From assembly GCA_022573815.1 (NCBI GenBank), contig JACZTG010000012.1:1-58322 (forward strand): a DNA stretch of 58,322 nucleotides. The letters run 5' to 3'. The notes below the pieces were generated by a model. That model did no database searches. It was not told where the DNA came from and saw only the letters and a list, made by a program, of their open reading frames with translations. Below are positions 10,641 through 20,412 of this stretch, one piece after another. Position numbers and translations under genes: made by a program. Numbering within the stretch: position 1 is the stretch's first letter; the number at the start of each line of letters is the position of its first letter. The DNA comes from Candidatus Neomarinimicrobiota bacterium. Its GTDB lineage: Bacteria; Fidelibacterota; SORT01.

Positions 10641-10661
10641 CGAAAATTTCAAACTCATTTG

Positions 10662-10732
10662 CTGGGGAGCAGGGATTCGAACCCCGACCGGCGACTCCAG
10701 AGGCCGCTGTCCTGCCATTAGACGACTCCCCA
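10662..10732 (-). tRNA. tRNA-Gln (CTG)
   Basis: A 71-nt cloverleaf on the minus strand. The acceptor stem TGGGGAG pairs with CTCCCCA. The D-arm contains AATGGCAGGA, the anticodon stem GCGGC/GTCGC encloses loop CCTCTGGA, giving anticodon CTG, and the T-arm is CGGGG-TTCGAAT-CCCTG. The discriminator is G and CCA is not encoded. Confidence 0.93.
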
Positions 10733-10797: not shown

Positions 10798-10925
10798 TTC
10801 TGTCATTGCGAGAAGTCTGAAAGACGACGCGGCAATCTCAATATTTACTGTCAGGCGAGAATTGAGATTACTTCGCTTCGCTGGCAATGACAACGGAGGC
10901 GGTCAGGACAAGCGTAAGTCCCGCT
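10798..10925. repeat. family A inverted pair plus C fragment
   Basis: TGTCATTGCGAGAAGTC...GCGGCAATCTCAAT and ATTGAGATTACTTCG...GGCAATGACA form a near-complete inverted repeat (10801-10892), able to fold into a long hairpin. A partial C arm (GCGGTCAGGACAAGCGTAAG) follows and abuts the dacB stop. Confidence 0.75.
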
Positions 10926-12414
10926 AATTCCCGCGGGAGTAATTTGAAAGAATGATTCCTATCCGATTCTGAAGTTCATTCGCCATACTCATTGGAAGAT
11001 TGTAATGATTCACAATGAAACTGAACACAATATCCTCCCCTTCCGCCGTTGTAACGTAACCAGACAAAGCCTTTACATAGCTTAACGATCCCGTTTTTGC
11101 TCTAAGATTCCCGGCGGCGTTTGTTCCGCTCATCCGCCTGCGGATAGTCCCGTCCACACCCGCAATAGGGAGTGAATTCATATAATAGTTCGCATACCTG
11201 TGCTTCCGCATATATCGGAGCAGCGTCGCCACCTGCTTAACGGTTATGAGATTCAGCCGTGATAGTCCTGAGCCGTCAACGATTTTAACAGCGTTATCGT
11301 CAATTCCCGTTTCCCTAAGGAACGACTTGACTACTTTTACGCCCGCCGAAGAACTCCCCGTTTTCTGATATTCCCTGCCAAGTGTTTTCAACAGCTGCTC
11401 CGCATAAAAATTCTGACTCGGCTTGTTAACTATTTTAATCATCTCGCTCATTGGAGGTGAAGTGTAAGTCGCCGCCACCATCATATTTTCATATTTTGGT
11501 TTAGATGTATGGTCATCGGCGTCCATTGCTTTCCCGCCGACAGATATTCCATTATCCTCAAGTGTTTCTTTAAGTACGGTCACAGTGTATAGCGTGGGAT
11601 TTCTGACCGAAGCCCAGGTCTTGGATTCTCTTTTCGTCAACGGCATATTACCCCAAAACGTGAAAAGGTTTCCGTCTATTGACCGATTGAAATTATAGTG
11701 CATTACAGAATCATTTTCTGTTGTCTTAATATTATTTTTAATCTGTATATATGACGTAGGCGGGTCGATCTCGATAATTGCCGGGTCTCCCGCTTTTTCT
11801 CCCGGCTTTATCAAAACATCTATGGCATTATCGTTGAATGACAGCCCGCTGATATGCGCTGAATACCAGTACGGCTCGTCATCCCAGCTCCAGCTATTAC
11901 CTAATGGAACATCGTCAAAGTAATCATCATCTCCGATAACATCGCCCGTTATTGCGTTGATACCCATTGCTTTCAGACTATCCGCCCAATCGAGAAAAGT
12001 GCCGACGATAACTCCCCCGTTGTACCTGCCGGATATAGTCGGGTCTCCCGAACCTTTTACGACAATGTTGCCTTTCAGCGTGCCGTTCTGAACCACGCCA
12101 TCTGTATATAACCGCGTTTTATATGTGAAGTTGGGACCGAATCTCACAAGCGCCGCAGCCGTTGTGAAGAGCTTCATATTTGAAGCGGGGATGAGAAGTT
12201 TATTCTCGTTATGACGGTACAGCACTTCGCGTTTGTCGGGAATTTCGATATAAACGCCCCACGTTGCTGAAGCAAATGCGGGATCATTCAGCAGTTGATC
12301 TATTTCAGTTCTTAGATTCCCTAACGGCGTGTCCGGATGTGCCATTTGGGCGGCACAGCCTGAGAACAGTGTGATCAGCAGTATAATCAGTAAGGTAATT
12401 TCCAATTTGTTCAT
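10924..12414 (-). CDS. dacB: D-alanyl-D-alanine carboxypeptidase/endopeptidase (PBP4, peptidase S13)
   Basis: A 496-residue penicillin-binding protein of family S13, which trims or cleaves D-Ala cross-links in peptidoglycan. It has a lipoprotein signal TLFSGC (Cys20), the SxxK motif S78-N-M-K81 in IPASNMKLF, SGLSRLN as the SxN motif and KTGSLSYV as the KTG motif. The long insert between the first two motifs is typical of the family. Its ATG overlaps the stop of the racemase/epimerase upstream by 4 bases, so it is translated in the same operon. The link to D-amino-acid enzymes upstream suggests wall-fragment recycling. Confidence 0.95.
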   Translation of the reverse strand: MNKLEITLLIILLITLFSGCAAQMAHPDTPLGNLRTEIDQLLNDPAFASATWGVYIEIPDKREVLYRHNENKLLIPASNMKLFTTAAALVRFGPNFTYKTRLYTDGVVQNGTLKGNIVVKGSGDPTISGRYNGGVIVGTFLDWADSLKAMGINAITGDVIGDDDYFDDVPLGNSWSWDDEPYWYSAHISGLSFNDNAIDVLIKPGEKAGDPAIIEIDPPTSYIQIKNNIKTTENDSVMHYNFNRSIDGNLFTFWGNMPLTKRESKTWASVRNPTLYTVTVLKETLEDNGISVGGKAMDADDHTSKPKYENMMVAATYTSPPMSEMIKIVNKPSQNFYAEQLLKTLGREYQKTGSSSAGVKVVKSFLRETGIDDNAVKIVDGSGLSRLNLITVKQVATLLRYMRKHRYANYYMNSLPIAGVDGTIRRRMSGTNAAGNLRAKTGSLSYVKALSGYVTTAEGEDIVFSFIVNHYNLPMSMANELQNRIGIILSNYSRGN

Positions 12415-13439
12415 TGATTATCTCCAATGGGTTCAACGCCTATTCCCGGTTTATCCGGAAGAATCAGTTTACCGTCAATAACGTCTATTCCGGTGTAAGG
12501 ATCGTTGCTCAAAAGCAGGTTGCCGTCCAGGTCGGCCCAATCCGCTAATGGAGAGAGATGAGCCGCCGCGCCGATTGCAATCGAACTTTCGCACATACAT
12601 CCCAGCATAACTTTTACGCCGTAAGAACGCGCTGTATGAATCATCTTGAGGGCTTCCGTCGGTCCTCCGCACTTCATAAGTTTAATGTTTATTCCGTGAA
12701 ATGCGTCGGCTATCTTCGGAATATCAACCGCCCTGATGCTGTTTTCATCCGCTATGAGTGGAAGCGGAGACCGCTCTTTCAGCCAGATGTAATCATCCAA
12801 GTTATCCGCGGGAAGCGGCTGCTCCACGAACTCCACATTTTGTCCGGCGAGCCAATTTATCTTTTCCAGCGCCTCTTCCTTGTTCCAACCCTCGTTTGCA
12901 TCCACCCGAATGACCTTGTCTGTCAATTCCCGAATTGCAATGATGATTTCCTTGTCGTTTTCAAGTCCCTGTTTCACTTTGAGAATCGGATATTGCTCAG
13001 CTTCCCGCACTTTCTGCTTTATAACATCAATCTCGTCAATTCCTATTGTAAACGTTGAAATTAGTGACTTATCCGGGTTCAAGCCCCATAATTTATAAAG
13101 CGGCTTGCCAAGTAGTTTTCCGAGAAGGTCCCAATAAGCGATGTTAACAGCGGCAATTGCCGACGGAGTCATAAGAGTGTTGCTTCTGCACGCCTCATCA
13201 ATATCCTCTATCAGATATGGATCATTGTATGGCGCTGAATCAAAATCGATACTCGCTAAGCCTGTTTCCACCTTTTTAATGTCTTCGCCATAGCGCGTTG
13301 TGGGAACCGCTTCACCTAACGCTTTAAGACCCTCGTATTCCAACTCCACAATCATCGAATCGTAGTGCGTCCGTGTACCGCGGGCGATTGTGAACGGATG
13401 CGTAAGATTCAATTTTACATATTTCCAGGTCGCTTTCAT
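12411..13439 (-). CDS. enolase-superfamily racemase: DgcA-like N-acetyl-D-Glu racemase or L-Ala-D/L-Glu epimerase
   Basis: A 342-residue mandelate-racemase/enolase-fold enzyme. Catalytic features are visible: KVK (K154 and K156) on one face, metal ligands D180 (VDANEGW), E206 (VEQPLP) and D231 (ADEN), the opposite base in NIKLMKCGG, and a C-terminal LDGN. This pattern fits dipeptide epimerases of the YcjG type and their relative DgcA. Because a DUF1611 (DgcN-type) gene precedes it with a 4-base overlap, I favour the DgcN-DgcA D-glutamate route, in which N-acetyl-D-Glu is racemised. The dipeptide epimerase alternative remains open, as dacB follows. Motifs are seen; the choice of substrate is inference. 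Confidence 0.88.
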   Translation of the reverse strand: MKATWKYVKLNLTHPFTIARGTRTHYDSMIVELEYEGLKALGEAVPTTRYGEDIKKVETGLASIDFDSAPYNDPYLIEDIDEACRSNTLMTPSAIAAVNIAYWDLLGKLLGKPLYKLWGLNPDKSLISTFTIGIDEIDVIKQKVREAEQYPILKVKQGLENDKEIIIAIRELTDKVIRVDANEGWNKEEALEKINWLAGQNVEFVEQPLPADNLDDYIWLKERSPLPLIADENSIRAVDIPKIADAFHGINIKLMKCGGPTEALKMIHTARSYGVKVMLGCMCESSIAIGAAAHLSPLADWADLDGNLLLSNDPYTGIDVIDGKLILPDKPGIGVEPIGDNQ

Positions 13440-14479
13440 TTATTCAACTTTACCGCTCTCATTATTGCATTTCCCAGCTTTTCACTGCCGAAACGAACAG
13501 GATCATCAGCAGGAAGACCCGTTTCTGCTTCTGCGGCTTCAATTGCGGACAACGCATCTTCTTCATTTAGTTCTGAAGTATACAGACTTACACCGATTAG
13601 GTCAACCTCTTTAAAAGGTTTCATCACCGCATTATGCATTTCGATAGCCGCAGTCAATGTTGGTAGTTCACTCCCATAATCGTTCAGTTTCCGCGACGGT
13701 TCGTGGCAGATTATCAGTCCGTCCGGCATTGACCCGTGAATTAACCCTAATGTAACTCCGCTATAACCCTGATGAAAAAGAGAACCTTGCCCTTCCACAA
13801 GCAGAAGATCGTTATCTTTTTCAATATCCATTATCACGCTCTCAATGGAACCCGCTATAAAATCGCTCACAACGGCATCTACGCAAACACCATAATCAGA
13901 TAATAATAATCCCGTTTGACCCGTCGCCACGAATGCTGTATTTAGCGGTTGATTTTTCAGGTAAGCAAGAAGTTGTAGTAGTGTGGTCATTTTCCCGATT
14001 GCCACATCCGTACCCACCGTCAGCAGGACATACGCTGAACGCTCCCGCCACAGGTCATCTGAAACGCTCAAGTCAACCGGGGGTCGCCTCAAATCCTGTA
14101 TATTCACGTTGTGTTTTCCCGCGGCTTCCTTGAATTCGTCATCGTCACCAATAAAACTGTGCATCCCGCTAACTATATCCAGTCCGGATTCAATTGCCTG
14201 CAACACCATACCGCGCCATTCGTCGGGAAGCCTTCCGCTCATTGGCGCAATACCTATAAGCAGGGCGTTTGGGGCGAATTCAAGGGTTTCTGAAAGAGTG
14301 GCCAATACAGGCGTATTATCTCCGTAACCAATCACATCCTCAGCAGTTTTTCCGGCATTGGCGCTGTCTATGAGAGCTACTGCAGAGTCCGGCGCATAAC
14401 GCAAGATGGCGTTGGCTGTTTTTGACTCTTTTGAGTTGAATTTTCCCTCTACGAGTATTGCGTAACGCCTTAAACTCAT
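13436..14479 (-). CDS. DUF1611 family P-loop protein, DgcN-like D-glutamate N-acetyltransferase
   Basis: A 347-residue protein of the DUF1611 family. It has an N-terminal Rossmann-like part (IGIAPMSGRLPDEWR) and a C-terminal P-loop half with GTDVAIGKMTT, plus LLLVEGQGSLFHQGYSG. Family members were shown to be D-Glu N-acetyltransferases (DgcN) that work with the enolase-superfamily racemase DgcA. The same gene order is present here. Its start overlaps the stop of the upstream LeuA/HMGL-like gene (TAATG) and its end overlaps the racemase start by 4 bases, indicating translational coupling. Substrate identity is inferred from this pairing. Confidence 0.82.
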   Translation of the reverse strand: MSLRRYAILVEGKFNSKESKTANAILRYAPDSAVALIDSANAGKTAEDVIGYGDNTPVLATLSETLEFAPNALLIGIAPMSGRLPDEWRGMVLQAIESGLDIVSGMHSFIGDDDEFKEAAGKHNVNIQDLRRPPVDLSVSDDLWRERSAYVLLTVGTDVAIGKMTTLLQLLAYLKNQPLNTAFVATGQTGLLLSDYGVCVDAVVSDFIAGSIESVIMDIEKDNDLLLVEGQGSLFHQGYSGVTLGLIHGSMPDGLIICHEPSRKLNDYGSELPTLTAAIEMHNAVMKPFKEVDLIGVSLYTSELNEEDALSAIEAAEAETGLPADDPVRFGSEKLGNAIMRAVKLNK

Positions 14480-15726
14480 TAAGAGTTGGCGTTCTCCACG
14501 ACGCTCATGATCTCATCACGAGTGAGTATCCTGTCAGACAGTTTCGCCAGGTCAAAGATACCGTCCACCAATGATTTTTCAGGCTCAATCCCCTCATTGC
14601 GGAGCCAGTAAATTACGTTGGATTTTCCCGACATAGGACCAATATCGATTATTTGGGTTTTCCCTACCATTCCGGCGGGAACTCCCGAATATATCCGGTC
14701 CGCCAACCATTCGTTACCTTTTGCATCCGCTTTAATTACCGCGGCGGCATGCACTCCGGTGCCTGTCCGGAAAGCGTCTTCACCTACCACAGGGTAGTTA
14801 TGAGCCAACGGGATACCCGTATATTCTGCTGTTTTTTCAACATATTCCGGCAGTCGTGTAAGGTCATTATTTATCACACCTAACAGGCGAAGGTTCACAA
14901 GCAGCAAGTCCATCGGAAGATTTCCCACCCGTTCTCCAATTCCCATTGCTGTTCCGTGCACCCTGTCCACTCCTGCTTCAATAGCAGCGAGAGCATTAGG
15001 CAGAGCCAATCCTCTGTCCCTGTGTCCGTGCCAATCTAATTTAATTGACTCATCTCTCGTGCTGAGAAATTCCCGTGTCCATCTAACTAAATTTTTCACA
15101 CCGTCGGGAGTGGCGTGCCCGCAGGTATCGCAAAGGCAGAGTCTGGATGCTCCGGAATCTATCGCAGCTCCGAATAGCGTCGCGAGAGTCTCAGGGTTCG
15201 CGCGCACAGTGTCCTCAGTTACGAACATAACCGGTAATCCTTCTTTGTGCGCGAAACTCACCGCTTCGGTAGTCCGTTTAACCATAAGATCAAGGCTCCA
15301 TTCTTCAGCGTAAACGCGAATCGGACTGCTGCCGATGAAAGCGCAACATTCAATGGGGATGCCCATTTCCTGTGATATTTCCGCTATCGGCTGGATATCC
15401 GAAATAACCGTTCGCGCGGCACAGTTAGGCGTTATTTTCATACCGTTTGAAACGATCTCTTTCACCAGAGCAGAAACGTCCGACAGGGCGCGAGGACCCG
15501 CTCCGGGAAGCCCAACATCCGCCGTGTGAATTCCTATCTCTTCCATCAGATGCAGAAGTTCTATTTTTTCTTCCAATGAAGGGTCTTTCACAGATGGCGA
15601 CTGAAGCCCGTCCCTCAGCGTTTCATCATCGAATTCTATTTCGCTCGTTCCCGATAACAGATTACCGTCAATGGTATTCCAATCATAGATAAGTTCGTTC
15701 ATATCAGGTGTAGATCTTTTATTCAA
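14479..15726 (-). CDS. HMGL/LeuA-like acyltransferase-lyase (2-isopropylmalate synthase superfamily)
   Basis: A TIM-barrel enzyme of the isopropylmalate synthase/HMG-CoA lyase superfamily. The metal and catalytic motif is DDETLRDGLQSPSV, followed by LCDTCGHATPDG, the ligand pair DWHGHRDRG and GIGERVGN. It is about 415 residues, so it lacks the LeuA leucine-binding regulatory domain. The specific substrate is not readable from sequence. The start is uncertain: TTG at 15726 has GGGAG upstream and lies just past the crotonase stop; ATG 15702 and TTG 15768 are alternatives. It sits between a crotonase and the DgcN/DgcA-like pair, an unusual set of neighbours. Confidence 0.82.
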   Translation of the reverse strand: MNKRSTPDMNELIYDWNTIDGNLLSGTSEIEFDDETLRDGLQSPSVKDPSLEEKIELLHLMEEIGIHTADVGLPGAGPRALSDVSALVKEIVSNGMKITPNCAARTVISDIQPIAEISQEMGIPIECCAFIGSSPIRVYAEEWSLDLMVKRTTEAVSFAHKEGLPVMFVTEDTVRANPETLATLFGAAIDSGASRLCLCDTCGHATPDGVKNLVRWTREFLSTRDESIKLDWHGHRDRGLALPNALAAIEAGVDRVHGTAMGIGERVGNLPMDLLLVNLRLLGVINNDLTRLPEYVEKTAEYTGIPLAHNYPVVGEDAFRTGTGVHAAAVIKADAKGNEWLADRIYSGVPAGMVGKTQIIDIGPMSGKSNVIYWLRNEGIEPEKSLVDGIFDLAKLSDRILTRDEIMSVVENANS

Positions 15727-15733
15727 ACCGCTA

Positions 15734-16516
15734 TCATCTCCCTTTGAATTTTGCGTCTCTTTTTTCAAGGAACGCGTTCATCCCTTCCTTCATATCCTCA
15801 GTTCCGCAGAGAATGCCGAACCTGTCCGACTCGATAGCAAGACCTTCTTCAAGCGACATATTCATCCCTCTCTGAACCGCCTCAATACACATTTTAACAG
15901 CGATAGGAGCATTTGAGATAATCTCTTTCATCATCTCTTTTGCCGCGTTAAGCGCCTCACCTTCAGGCACTACTTTATTAACGATGCCAAGCCTTTCAGC
16001 TTCTTCGGCAGTGATGATCTTGCCGGTAAGAATCAACTCTAAAGCGCGACCGGTCCCGATGAGTCGCGGCAACCGTTGAGTACCGCCGAATCCGGGCATA
16101 ATTCCAAGTCCGACCTCAGGCGCGCCTAATTTAGCGTTCTCGGAAGCGATGCGGATGTGACATCCGAGAGCCAGCTCGAATCCGCCTCCCAAAGCGTAAC
16201 CGTTAATGGCAGCGATAACGGGTTTCCCCATAAGCTCAAATACTGTCAGAGTTTCCTGCCCTTCGAAAGAAGTTTTCCTCCCCTCCAAAATAGAAGATTT
16301 AACCAGTTCATTTATATCCGCTCCCGCCATAAACGCTTTATCCCCTTCACCCGTGACTATCATTCCGGCGACGGAATCATCCTCGCTCACGGCAATTGCA
16401 GCGGCTTTCAGTTCAGCGTTCGTTTCGGCATTCATAGCGTTCAGAACATCAGGACGATTTACAGTCACAACGGCGATCCTGTCTTCCACTTCATATTTTA
16501 TATTTTTGTAGGACAT
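15734..16516 (-). CDS. enoyl-CoA hydratase (crotonase family)
   Basis: A 260-residue crotonase. It carries the oxyanion-hole segments MAGADI and GYALGGGFELALGCH, and the second catalytic Glu region PEVGLGIMPGFGGTQRLPR. Both Glu positions expected for hydration (E of FELAL and E of PEVGL) are present, so hydratase activity is likely rather than isomerase only. It ends FKGR like typical short-chain hydratases. ATG 16516 has GGAGAGG upstream. It is first in the operon running down to dacB. The pathway (fatty-acid or amino-acid catabolism) is not fixed by context. Confidence 0.92.
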   Translation of the reverse strand: MSYKNIKYEVEDRIAVVTVNRPDVLNAMNAETNAELKAAAIAVSEDDSVAGMIVTGEGDKAFMAGADINELVKSSILEGRKTSFEGQETLTVFELMGKPVIAAINGYALGGGFELALGCHIRIASENAKLGAPEVGLGIMPGFGGTQRLPRLIGTGRALELILTGKIITAEEAERLGIVNKVVPEGEALNAAKEMMKEIISNAPIAVKMCIEAVQRGMNMSLEEGLAIESDRFGILCGTEDMKEGMNAFLEKRDAKFKGR

Positions 16517-16531: not shown

Positions 16532-17977
16532 TTATCGTTCCTTCCAGAATGTCCTGCTGAATAGGACGATAACAGTAAACAGTTCAAGTCTTCCAAGAAG
16601 CATACAGAAATTCAATAAAAGTTTCCCTAAAGCGGGCAAGTGAGCGTAATTATCGGTGGGACCCAAGCTTCCGAGGGCGGGGCCGATATTTCCGATTGCC
16701 GATGCCGTTACCGACAAAGCGCTAACCATATCCAGACCCATAGCAGACATAACTATACTTACGGTAACAAATATGCCCATATAGAAAAGGAAAAATCCCA
16801 GAACGTTTCTGATTACATCGTCGGAAATGAGACGCTCTCCGAACCGCACCGGATAGACGGCAGTCGGATGAACGAGTTTCCGGATTTCATGGGCGGCGTG
16901 TTTCACAAGTATAACAATCCGAATAACTTTCATCGAACCGCCTGTGGAGCTTGCGCATCCGCCGATGAACATCATTGCCAATACGAGCAACTGCCCTGCC
17001 GGGATCCAGAGTTCGAAATCTGTAGTCACATAACCTGTGGTGGTGATGATAGCAACGGTCTGAAACACGGCTTTTCGCAGCATTACATCGCCCGTAACGT
17101 TTTCGCTGATGGATATTATGACCAGAAATGCCGCCGAAAATATTATCATTAACCCAAGATAATACTGAAATTCCTTATCGCGAAAGTGAGCGGTCAAATC
17201 GCCCTTGAACATCCTGAAATGAAGCGCGAAATTAGCTCCTGCAAGCACCATAAAAAAGATGATTACATAATCAATATATGCGCTGTTATAGTGAGCAATG
17301 CTTGCGTTTTTAGTGGAAAATCCACCGGTAGCCATTGTTCCGAACGTATGACAGACCGAATCAAAAAAATCCATTCCCCCGACATAAAGCATCACGACTT
17401 CAACTCCGCTAATGAGAATATATGTTATCCAGAGCAGTTTCGCCGTCTCTCTGATACGCGGAGTAAACCTGTCTTTCGTGGGACCCGGCGCTTCGGCTTT
17501 ATAGAGCTGAGCGGCTCCTATGCCTAACATTGGAAGAATCGCAAGGGAAAACACAATAATTCCCATCCCGCCGAGCCAATGAGTCAGCGAACGCCAAAAG
17601 AGTATGCCGTGCGGAAGAGCTTCAATGTCTATGAGGATTGATGCGCCGGTAGTTGTAAACCCTGACATAGATTCAAAAAATGCGTCAACGGGACTTGCAA
17701 TACTACCCGATATAAGAAAAGGTAAAGCACCGAATATCGCGCTTGTAATCCAGCCGAATGTGACTATAGCAAATCCGTCTCTTACTTTTATCTCGGATTC
17801 CCCTCTTGTCGTAAACCATGCAACAAAACCTGTCCCAACGGTAATCCCGATAGAGATGAGAATAGCGTTAAAATCGCCATCCCCGTAGTAGAGCGAAAAC
17901 GGAAGAGCCAGTGCCATTGCTCCGCCGAGGAATATCCAGAGTGCACCTAAAGTATTCAGTATCTGCTTAAATTTCAC
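16532..17977 (-). CDS. trkH: Trk potassium uptake protein TrkH
   Basis: A 481-residue polytopic membrane protein with the four pore-loop repeats of TrkH/KtrB: TTTGASI, FGTMATGGFSTKNAS, IITTTGYVTTDF and TASAIGNIGPALG. Each includes the filter glycine region. It imports K+ together with the regulatory subunit TrkA, encoded just upstream at 18017-19360. The start codon is GTG at 17977 and no clear ribosome site is seen. Confidence 0.96.
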   Translation of the reverse strand: MKFKQILNTLGALWIFLGGAMALALPFSLYYGDGDFNAILISIGITVGTGFVAWFTTRGESEIKVRDGFAIVTFGWITSAIFGALPFLISGSIASPVDAFFESMSGFTTTGASILIDIEALPHGILFWRSLTHWLGGMGIIVFSLAILPMLGIGAAQLYKAEAPGPTKDRFTPRIRETAKLLWITYILISGVEVVMLYVGGMDFFDSVCHTFGTMATGGFSTKNASIAHYNSAYIDYVIIFFMVLAGANFALHFRMFKGDLTAHFRDKEFQYYLGLMIIFSAAFLVIISISENVTGDVMLRKAVFQTVAIITTTGYVTTDFELWIPAGQLLVLAMMFIGGCASSTGGSMKVIRIVILVKHAAHEIRKLVHPTAVYPVRFGERLISDDVIRNVLGFFLFYMGIFVTVSIVMSAMGLDMVSALSVTASAIGNIGPALGSLGPTDNYAHLPALGKLLLNFCMLLGRLELFTVIVLFSRTFWKER

Positions 17978-18016: not shown

Positions 18017-19360
18017 TTATGGAGAGAATAATTTTTCAACTTCCGGGATCGCGTCAGCACGTGTGAAGACCACTACCTTATCTCCCGGCACGATAATACT
18101 ATCCCCGGTCGGTATTGTAATCTCGTTCACGTGCATCTGCGCGCCGATGATAGTTCCTTTCGGGAAATTACAATCTTTAATAGGTTTTTTTGTTACTTTG
18201 CTGTCCAATTGAGGAATGAGTTCAATCGCTTCAATGTCGGTTCCCTCAAGCGAAGTTACAGAAACCACAACTCCTTTTCGCACGAACTTCAGGATAGCGT
18301 CCACGGTGGCAACGCTCTTGCTGACCACAGAATCGACTCCGATGTGGTCAACCACAGGCATCAGGTCGGTGCGGGTAACATGCACTATTGCCTTTTTCAC
18401 TCCCAAATCCTTTGCGAGAATAGCGGAGACGATGTTTTTCTCATCAAGCTGTGACACCGCTACGAACGCGTCAATATCTTTGATACCTTCGCTATTCAGA
18501 AGCTCTATATCCGTACCGTCGCCTTTTATTATCAGCGTATTTTTAAGCATTTTTGCCGCTCTTTCAGTCTTTGATACGCTTGTATCAATAATTTTTACAG
18601 ATATTTTATCTTCAAGGAGCTGCGCAAGACGTCTTCCTATCTTCCCTGCCCCAAGTATCATAACGTTTTCAGCAGGCTCCTGCTCTTTACCGGCTAATTT
18701 CATCACATCGGAAATAGAATCGGTTTCGGCAATAATGTACACATGATCCTTCTGTTCAAATATTTCCGTGCCTGTAGGCATAATCGTTTCACCGTTCCTG
18801 CTGATTGCCACAGTTCTGTAAGATAAATCGGGATGATTTAGGCCGACATCCGTCAAGCTTTTCCCTATCATAGGCGAATCATCGCGAAGCTTCATCCCTA
18901 CAAGCTGAACCCTTCCGCCGGAGAATTCCGCTACTTCGCTTGCGGCGGAGCGTCGTATTAGATTTTTAATCTGTTTTGCCGCTTCTTCTTCAGGATGAAT
19001 CATTTTGTCCACACCAAGCTGAGCAGGCGTTATAAGAGCTCTCGGCTTTGAATATTCGGCGTTTCTCACACGGGCTATCTTCGTTTCCACTCCCAGCCTG
19101 TTTGCAAACATACAAGCCATTATATTTACTTCGTCCACACTTGTTACTCCGATGAGCATATCAACTTTCTTTATACCTGCTTCGGAAAGCGTTTCCGCGC
19201 TGGCTCCGTTCCCTTCCAACACAAGCACATCCAAATGCTCACGCGCCCGCTGGCACTTTACCGCATCATCGTCAAGCATAGTAATATCGTGGTTCTCTTC
19301 TGATAACATTTTTGCGAGATAAAATCCTACTTCCCCCGCTCCTACAATAATGATTTTCAT
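18017..19360 (-). CDS. trkA: Trk system potassium transporter regulatory subunit TrkA
   Basis: A 447-residue peripheral protein with two RCK units. The first Rossmann motif is [14 protein letters not shown] at residue 5 and the second is [14 protein letters not shown] near 236. Each is followed by a TrkA-C domain; the second ends [20 protein letters not shown]. It gates TrkH in response to nucleotides. Its ATG overlaps the threonine aldolase stop (4 bases), and trkH follows 39 bases later. Confidence 0.96.
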
Positions 19361-20412
19361 TGGTTGCTTCCTGTGTGAAATGCCTCTGCTTTGTGAACAT
19401 TATTAAATGCTTCTACCGCTCGATTCGTTCCCTCTTTATTTACATCCAGGTGAAAAACAGCTCTGAGCCGCTGCGGTGCCGTTGCCAAAATTGCCACTCC
19501 TTCTTTGCCTAAAGCTTCCGCCCATTCGGCTCCCGTGCCTATAGACGGATCGATGTCTATCATAACTATGTTTGATTGAACCCAATCGAGATCGACAGAT
19601 ATTCCTTCTAAGTCAGCGATTCCTTCCGCAAGAGTCCGAGCGTTTTTATGGTCATCCTTCAATCTTTCAACATTATTCTCAAGAGCGTAAATTCCCGCCT
19701 GAGCGATGATACCCGCCTGACGCATCCCTCCGCCGTAAGTTTTCCGGTAGCGGTGAGCCTTTTGAATAAATTCTTTTGTGCCTGCAATCAGAGATCCGAC
19801 CGGCGCGCCGAGACCTTTCGAAAGACAGATGCTTGCCGAATCAAAATACGACGCCCATTCATCGGCGGCGATTCCTGTAGCAGCGACAGCATTCAGAAGC
19901 CGCGCTCCGTCGAGGTGCATATTGATATCACGCTCTCTGGCAAGAGCGGAGATTTCTTTTATCTGCTCTATCGGAAAGATAGTTCCGCCCGCCCTGTTAT
20001 GCGTGTTTTCCAACGCTATGAGAGCTGACTGCGCAAAATGAGAGTTATCCGGTCTGATATTCTCTTTTACCTGATCGGCAGTGAAAGAGCCCATATGACC
20101 CTCGAGTGTCCTGAGCATTACTCCGGAGAGAAGAGCCGGACCGCCCGCTTCATAATTATATAGATGGCACCCCACTTCGCAGATGACCTCATTTCCGGGC
20201 TGTGTGTGAACGTTGATGCTGATTTGATTTGCCATCGTGCCGCTGGGCAGGTAAAGAGCGGCTTCTTTACCTAATAGTTCCGCAACGATTTCCTGAAGCC
20301 TGTTAATACTCGGGTCTTCACCGAATACATCATCCCCGACTTCCGCATTCATCATCGCCTCTCTCATCCCGGCCGAGGGCTTTGTGACTGTGTCGCTCCT
20401 GATATCAATCAT
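19357..20412 (-). CDS. ltaE: low-specificity L-threonine aldolase
   Basis: A 351-residue fold-type I PLP enzyme cleaving L-threonine or allo-threonine to glycine and acetaldehyde. It starts [19 protein letters not shown], a family hallmark, and has DGARLLNA and the Schiff-base Lys in [14 protein letters not shown], then [12 protein letters not shown]. Length is normal. It is cotranscribed with trkA, whose start overlaps its stop. Upstream lies a repeat-filled gap, so the operon promoter probably lies within about 60 bases of 20412. Confidence 0.95.

Follow-up and report, generated by a model that had tools for sequence, protein, structure and literature searches.

The question raised by this locus is why a short run of genes, all on the minus strand, joins a crotonase and a protein resembling 2-isopropylmalate synthase (IPMS, LeuA) to relatives of the D-glutamate (D-Glu) enzymes DgcN and DgcA and to the wall peptidase DacB. 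The run lies in a stretch of 58,322 nucleotides (positions 1 to 58,322 of contig JACZTG010000012.1, assembly GCA_022573815.1; hereafter the window) from a Candidatus Neomarinimicrobiota bacterium. An original prediction, made from the letters of the sequence, had suggested that the crotonase and the LeuA-like enzyme may define a new downstream branch of D-Glu metabolism. The explanation we favour, with a probability of about 0.55, is that an operon for D-Glu salvage, kept at the level of the phylum, has in the window's lineage come to carry a crotonase/LeuA-like pair from another pathway.

In this explanation, the operon of Marinimicrobia (Fidelibacterota, the host phylum, whose named relatives are Candidatus Neomarinimicrobiota or Marinimicrobia genomes) would salvage D-Glu or compounds containing it. 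The DgcN-like protein would N-acylate D-Glu, the DgcA-like protein would racemize N-acyl-Glu to the L form, and the crotonase of the old operon would hydrate a short-chain enoyl-CoA. In the window's lineage, a foreign crotonase and the LeuA-like gene would hold the crotonase slot and act as a pair in another pathway, with the LeuA-like enzyme joining acetyl-CoA to a polar 2-oxo acid through the Claisen mechanism usual for DRE-TIM enzymes. Such an insert may draw carbon or acetyl-CoA from the glutamate side through shared expression only, and not as a dedicated D-Glu branch. The first two steps would follow the DgcN-DgcA pathway (EC 2.3.1.312 and 5.1.1.25), where a DUF1611 protein is likewise followed by an enolase-superfamily racemase, according to the available parts of PMC11747546, PMC10845958, and PMC12363236.

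The operon itself is best seen across the phylum (labels starting with G denote genomes, with L the loci or regions compared, and with f families). DUF1611 was matched in 102 of the 245 genomes searched, and among the 30 DUF1611 loci listed DgcA adjoins it in 16, four of which belong to the window family. Sixty hand-picked regions were fetched from the same DUF1611 list (with a preference for DgcN-like members) plus one LeuA-like contig, and 59 of them hold a DgcN-like match. On the same strand, DgcA lies downstream in 47 of the 59 (the other 12 have no DgcA there) and a crotonase upstream in 25; TrkH is present in 30, TrkA in 28, a downstream DacB in 10, an aldehyde dehydrogenase (ALDH) in six, a 3-hydroxy-3-methylglutaryl-CoA (HMG-CoA) lyase-like gene in two, and a LeuA-like gene in one (L249, of the window family). 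A TrkA-TrkH-crotonase-DgcN-DgcA backbone recurs in several families without LeuA-like, joined in some lineages by a threonine aldolase and DacB. For example, family f3 has Thr-aldolase-TrkA-TrkH-crotonase-DgcN-DgcA-DacB, which is the window order minus LeuA-like, at about 40-54% protein identity. Because f3 and other families keep this order without LeuA-like, the crotonase is an old member of the phylum operon and the LeuA-like gene is the odd one out. The expectation that the five-gene order would be conserved was thus not borne out: the full order was found only in the window family, whereas the four-gene order without LeuA-like is kept more widely. Several families of the phylum do have a translationally coupled DgcN-DgcA-type pair that shares its operon with a crotonase and, in certain lineages, also with DacB.

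A link of this operon to D-Glu is likely, though uncertified by the curated family cut-offs. The DgcN-like gene (13436..14479) has the DUF1611_N plus DUF1611_C (P-loop) architecture (PF07755 216 bits, PF17396 91 bits) and is coupled to the DgcA-like gene (12411..13439), which encodes a predicted enolase-superfamily racemase/epimerase with MR_MLE_N and MR_MLE_C domains. Annotated plasmid loci of Klebsiella and Pantoea show the two genes in this order too; unlike those, the window has no ABC transporter genes following and links the pair to Trk, crotonase, and DacB. Because both proteins score under the curated cut-offs, we treat them as relatives of DgcN and DgcA and not as certified members. 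A role in D-Glu synthesis was discarded, since the window's genome has a glutamate racemase of its own (MurI, 260 bits) and does not depend on the pair for D-Glu. DacB, as an enzyme of a family that acts on D-Ala peptide bonds, would not itself be a D-Glu source.

The crotonase (15734..16516) matches Pfam ECH_1 at 226 bits (gathering score 27). It resembles the short-chain enoyl-CoA hydratases of the PRK05809 type over its whole length, this being its best NCBIfam match at 324.5 bits, under the cut-off of 394, and its substrate is a predicted one. In a 56-row tree, which includes control crotonases of the same genomes that are not linked to LeuA-like, the window-family crotonases grouped with those of L065 and L070 only (support 97/90), and a single clade of all Marinimicrobia crotonases was rejected (p-AU, the approximately unbiased test, 0.0009). 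The window crotonase is xenologous to the crotonases that occupy the same operon slot in other families. In L070, L088, and L108, which belong to other phyla, a crotonase stands directly before the LeuA-like gene, and in L065 one open reading frame (ORF) of 244 amino acids lies between them. Since the window crotonase groups with crotonases found near LeuA-like genes elsewhere, the two probably form a working pair.

The LeuA-like gene (14479..15702) encodes a DRE-TIM metallolyase of the Claisen-condensing type (PF00682 139 bits), referred to here as the 'ELIYDWN' subfamily. Within the phylum it is confined to four genomes of the window family (above 860 bits, against at most 142.5 in all others of the 245). 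Outside the phylum it is widespread: two N-terminal motifs match 310 loci in a collection of 84,980 species, and the locus counts given here rest on the best 80 of these, 78 of them outside Marinimicrobia. The carriers among the best 80 include Gemmatimonadota, Acidobacteria, Eisenbacteria, Myxococcota/Deltaproteobacteria, Planctomycetota, KSB1, Chloroflexi, Ignavibacteria, and others. At none of the 78 outside loci was DgcN or DgcA found. The proposal of a new downstream D-Glu branch, possible as it is, lacks support. What does occur near LeuA-like at these 78 loci is a thiolase (at least 20), an isocitrate dehydrogenase (IDH)/LeuB-like protein (at least 13), a crotonase (at least 11), LeuD (at least five), and LeuC (at least three), all of which are lower bounds because many contigs end there. 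A 3-hydroxybutyryl-CoA dehydrogenase is also among the neighbors in other phyla, and an M20-type peptidase (recognized by eye) lies near LeuA-like in 24 of the 80 loci, within 300 bp in 20, mostly in Acidobacteria.

As to the type of enzyme, the LeuA-like proteins form one clade (Shimodaira-Hasegawa-like approximate likelihood ratio test 100, stem 3.37) apart from the IPMS, citramalate synthases (CimA), and homocitrate synthases (HCS) in a 61-row tree built with a quick method and showing long branches. The AlphaFold2 model (pLDDT 93, pTM 0.90) comes closest to the catalytic domain of an HCS (6ktq; Z 44.6, 376 aligned residues, 2.4 Å), with which Foldseek agrees, followed by a methylthioalkylmalate synthase (MAMS; 6e1j, Z 42.2), IPMS (37-38), and HMG-CoA lyases (about 28-30). 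Across an alignment of 83 members, R30, D31, E163, H225, H227, N261, H318, and Y338 are invariant. For MAMS, the available text of PMC11532901 describes roles for an Arg, an Asp, two His, a Glu, a later His, and a Tyr; the mapping of MAMS and IPMS residues onto the window protein is our own. With the catalytic Arg, Asp, two His, and Glu, the C-terminal His and Tyr, and a full-length fold, the protein agrees with the broad description of Claisen-condensing DRE-TIM enzymes, and judging by its model it is very likely a condensing enzyme. A role as HMG-CoA lyase was rejected, given the presence of the C-terminal His/Tyr synthase region and the much lower Z-scores of the lyase folds.

The LeuA-like protein thus has its fold (over 376 residues) and every catalytic residue in common with the 2-isopropylmalate, homocitrate, citramalate, and methylthioalkylmalate synthases. 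It differs from them in its separate clade, its N-terminal ELIYDWN, its pocket residues, and the lack of a regulatory domain. The 83 members also share, without exception, R129, E133, W135, V161, and H196, in which they differ from nearly all references, and position 159 is Met in 83% of the members where references have Glu (IPMS), Arg (HCS), or Ile/Val (CimA). At the position of R129 the IPMS and CimA references have, with one exception, a His; the Arg may bind a carboxylate, which would suit a substrate with a second one.

Several observations weigh against the favored explanation. The DgcN-like protein reaches 254.6 bits against the NCBIfam model for DgcN (NF041892, cut-off 480), and the DgcA-like protein 233.4 bits against that for DgcA (NF042940, cut-off 400), yet the latter is its best NCBIfam match. 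In a 53-row tree the Marinimicrobia DgcA-like proteins fall on the side of the Protein Data Bank (PDB) entries 3iji and 3jva. For the crotonase, a sister relation to L070 alone has a support of 43/61, and a clade joining the window crotonases with those of L070, L088, L108, and L065 is rejected once the unlinked controls are included (p 0.004), which leaves L065 and L070 as the sole support for the pair; the tree without these controls, which kept that clade (p 0.08), was too generous. The window-family LeuA-like proteins fall near Gemmatimonadota, and the topology test speaks weakly against joining them with L065 and L070 in one clade (p 0.038). The two genes thus point to different donors, the crotonase to L065/L070 and the LeuA-like protein to Gemmatimonadota. 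As the window family lies deep in the phylum, the pair may have been imported into this family or may have been lost and replaced in the rest. Finally, as regards activity, the substrates of all window enzymes are inferred by us from sequence.

The alternative that survives best, possible though on the unlikely side, is that the DgcA-like protein is an L-Ala-D/L-Glu epimerase, with the DgcN-like protein catalyzing another step, and that the operon recycles murein peptides together with DacB. The closest PDB sequence to the DgcA-like protein is 3iji (also 3ijl/3ijq), which we take to be the Bacteroides dipeptide epimerase BT1313; it scores 316 bits, about twice the next (153). The two group together in the 53-row tree yet apart from the Escherichia coli epimerase YcjG (1jpd), on whose side the plasmid-labeled DgcA of Klebsiella and Pantoea fall (100/100); this tree holds only two labeled DgcA rows and has long branches. 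The profile models, on the other hand, prefer DgcA, as the L-Ala-D/L-Glu epimerase model (NF011708) gives only 158.9 bits (cut-off 343) against 233 for DgcA. The original prediction had asked whether this protein groups with strict Ala-Glu dipeptide epimerases, and to that question tree and models give different answers. The KxK, D, E, D, and K positions, presumably with their usual catalytic roles, are aligned in the DgcA-like protein, and the DLDG motif of dipeptide epimerases is present. Both are common to every row inspected (12 of 53), plasmid DgcA included, so the motifs cannot separate an N-acyl-Glu racemase from a dipeptide epimerase, and the DxD motif was dropped as a discriminator. 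The structure model of the protein is poor (pLDDT 50.7). The presence of DacB in the operon would suit recycling, but among the 59 regions the DgcA-like gene is coupled to DUF1611 in 47 and DacB occurs in only 10. The window protein, nearest to the Bacteroides enzyme by sequence, differs from it in being partnered with DUF1611, for which a search of the Bacteroides control genome gave no match.

It is rather unlikely that the gene order is merely inherited, with a shared promoter, no common pathway, and the LeuA-like gene there by accident. Potassium uptake, threonine aldolase, and a wall peptidase side by side do not suggest a single pathway, and the same operon site has received other insertions (ALDH, a YkvI-like transporter, and a gamma-glutamyltransferase (GGT)). 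However, the order is kept at about 40-50% protein identity, the crotonase adjoins LeuA-like in three loci of other phyla, and the window crotonase groups with two LeuA-linked crotonases.

A bolder and, to our judgment, unlikely proposal is that the 'ELIYDWN' proteins are an unrecognized class of enzymes condensing acetyl-CoA with 2-oxo acids in a further alkylmalate-type chain extension, wired in the window lineage to a supply of D-Glu. Their partners would be LeuC, LeuD, and LeuB homologs, thiolase, 3-hydroxybutyryl-CoA dehydrogenase, and crotonase. In L134 and L136 (Chloroflexi) the order is LeuA-like-LeuC-LeuD-LeuB-thiolase, and the L134 genome encodes a canonical LeuA, ketol-acid reductoisomerase (KARI), LysX, and a lysine-type HCS besides the LeuA-like protein, which therefore adds something else there. 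If true, many uncultured phyla would have, beside the pathways of leucine, isoleucine, and lysine, a further chain extension that connects their pool of 2-oxo acids with short-chain acyl-CoAs.

Still less probable is a glutamate-oxidizing branch, which spells out the idea of the original prediction. Here L-Glu would give 2-oxoglutarate, from which the LeuA-like enzyme would form homocitrate with acetyl-CoA; homocitrate would pass through LeuCD and an IDH-like enzyme to 2-oxoadipate, and a 2-oxoacid dehydrogenase would lead via glutaryl-CoA to crotonyl-CoA, hydrated by the operon crotonase on the way to acetyl-CoA. The closest fold (6ktq) and the invariant R129, if it indeed meets a second carboxylate, would suit such a role. 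The window's genome has two LeuC/LeuD sets, one of which lies beside a 2-oxoacid dehydrogenase E1 and an IDH-like gene that matches homoisocitrate dehydrogenase best. Elsewhere, LeuA-like lies near IDH, acyl-CoA dehydrogenase, and crotonase (L064/L066) or amid benzoyl-CoA degradation genes (L098 and L130, with a 6-oxocyclohex-1-ene-1-carbonyl-CoA hydratase over its cut-off and reductase subunits recognized by eye), and the benzoyl-CoA pathway yields glutaryl-CoA. Against this stands Met159, on the strand that precedes the catalytic Glu, where the four HCS references carry an Arg that we assume to matter for homocitrate synthesis. The HCS models score only 168-173 bits against cut-offs of 414-463 (TIGR02660 172.8 against 462.9, TIGR02146 168.4 against 413.55). 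In L130, LeuC and LeuB pass the isopropylmalate and not the homoaconitate cut-offs; in Pyrinomonas (G245), which has LeuA-like, the sole separate LeuD-type subunit lies near the canonical LeuA; and the lack of DgcN/DgcA at the 78 outside loci counts here as well.

Lastly, it is very improbable that the LeuA-like protein makes 2-isopropylmalate for leucine. In favor of this, the NCBIfam model that it matches best is that of an IPMS subfamily (190.8 bits, cut-off 517; a second IPMS model gives 141.6 against 598.7), it is the only PF00682 gene of the window's genome, and LeuCDB stand beside it in L134/L136. Against it, other residues take the place of those in the IPMS pocket, KARI tracks canonical LeuA and not LeuA-like, and the L134 genome holds canonical LeuA and KARI, with LysX and a lysine-type HCS, as well. 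KARI (PF01450) gave no match in the four LeuA-like genomes of the window family (G000, the window's genome, to G003) nor in 24 of 37 named LeuA-like genomes. With 'canonical' LeuA read by us as a PF00682 score of at least 240 bits, these 37 split into 10 with both canonical LeuA and KARI, three with KARI only, two with LeuA only, and 22 with neither (Fisher p 4e-5). In G262 the canonical match has one for LysX next to it and could itself be an HCS; without it the counts become 9, 4, 2, and 22 (p 2e-4). One PF00682 match each in G279 (L267) and G255 (L262) is HCS- or NifV-like by NCBIfam, and both genomes have another above 300 bits. A lysine (aminoadipate) role in the window family was also rejected, as LysX reaches 115-127 bits at best in its four genomes (cut-off 275.6, exceeded in five of 39 genomes examined). 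A need for a Re-citrate synthase was dismissed because the window's genome has a full citrate synthase.

Why do these genes matter? Marinimicrobia are common in the sea, and a DgcN-DgcA operon kept across many of their families indicates where to look for D-Glu use. The recalcitrant organic matter of seawater includes D-amino acids, D-Glu among them, and dgcN has already been reported for Marinisomatia from Mariana Trench data (both in the available part of PMC12363236). The LeuA-like subfamily, in turn, is widespread, and similarity would name it 2-isopropylmalate synthase, probably wrongly, because it often occurs without KARI and beside acyl-CoA genes. In a literature search that did not reach subscription papers, so that absence from print is unproven, none was recognized on this operon or on this subfamily.

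Returning to the window, ORFs and hmmscan searches (Pfam and NCBIfam) agree on the five predicted genes, their positions, and their families. The run is longer than first noted, with three genes preceding the five. It starts with a predicted GntG/low-specificity L-threonine aldolase-type pyridoxal phosphate enzyme (19357..20412; NF041359 424 bits, cut-off 230; NF007825 341 bits, cut-off 312), followed by the potassium uptake subunits TrkA (NAD-binding, 18017..19360) and TrkH (membrane, 16532..17977). Both Trk proteins were named by eye; TrkA has a same-place homolog in other families, and TrkH is kept upstream of crotonase/DgcN elsewhere. The eighth and last gene is dacB (PBP4, a D-Ala-D-Ala carboxypeptidase-endopeptidase of Peptidase_S13; 10924..12414; TIGR00666 343.2 bits, cut-off 107.8), beyond which a tRNA-Gln lies at 10661-10732. 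The aldolase gene overlaps trkA by 4 bp, and gaps of 39 bp (TrkA to TrkH) and 15 bp (TrkH to crotonase) follow. The most likely start of LeuA-like is the ATG at 15702, leaving a 31-bp gap after the crotonase, and its relatives start near the same position after short gaps; with a TTG start the gene would be longer and reach 35 bp into the crotonase. The overlaps of one to four bases reported from LeuA-like to dacB are there (1, 4, and 4 bp) and recur as 4, 4, and 4 bp at the three matching junctions of L249 and L063. Promoter and terminator scans of the locus gave results near chance level.

The window's genome (2.39 Mb, 65 contigs, 96% complete) has four further genomes in its family (G001 to G004), and the next listed kin share the phylum only. 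The five-gene order stands on a single contig in G000, G002 (L062), and G003 (apparently L063), so the arrangement is not due to chance. In G001 one contig stops just past LeuA-like, with DgcN-DgcA-DacB on another (L058, L250). G004 (66% complete) matched neither LeuA-like nor DUF1611.

Some minor observations concern the same protein families. On contig 3 of the window's genome, an operon (L180:432-13182) with a fused 2-oxoacid dehydrogenase E1, SucC- and SucD-like proteins, a citryl-CoA lyase-type protein, LeuC, LeuD, an IDH-like, and a PrpD-like protein is possibly a variant tricarboxylic acid cycle or methylcitrate-like unit. A methylmalonyl-CoA epimerase lies downstream of DgcA in 40 of the 59 regions (e.g., L203:9855-10280; above cut-off in the one tested). 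One lineage places a GGT-like gene between DgcN and DgcA (10 of 59 regions, L204, L205, L210, L214, and L246 among them), which suggests a glutamyl substrate there. In five genomes of family f9 (G103, G105, G106, G107, and G014, three of them at least 95% complete) DUF1611 is present, and none is among the MurI matches listed; DgcN-DgcA might supply D-Glu there. The phylum also has a second DUF1611 subfamily, 32-39% identical to the window's and without DgcA in its loci of 3-3.6 kb. In two genomes of family f11 (L192:7405-9332 and L232:5996-7928), a DgcN-like gene without DgcA is immediately preceded by an HMG-CoA lyase-like gene (4-bp overlap and 25-bp gap, respectively), a second DRE-TIM family enzyme beside DgcN in the phylum. 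Finally, on two Vibrio plasmids (L253:4860-7174 and L258:4860-7198), DUF1611 overlaps by 4 bp a gene of the alanine/ornithine racemase family instead of DgcA, and DUF1611 thus pairs with different types of racemases.

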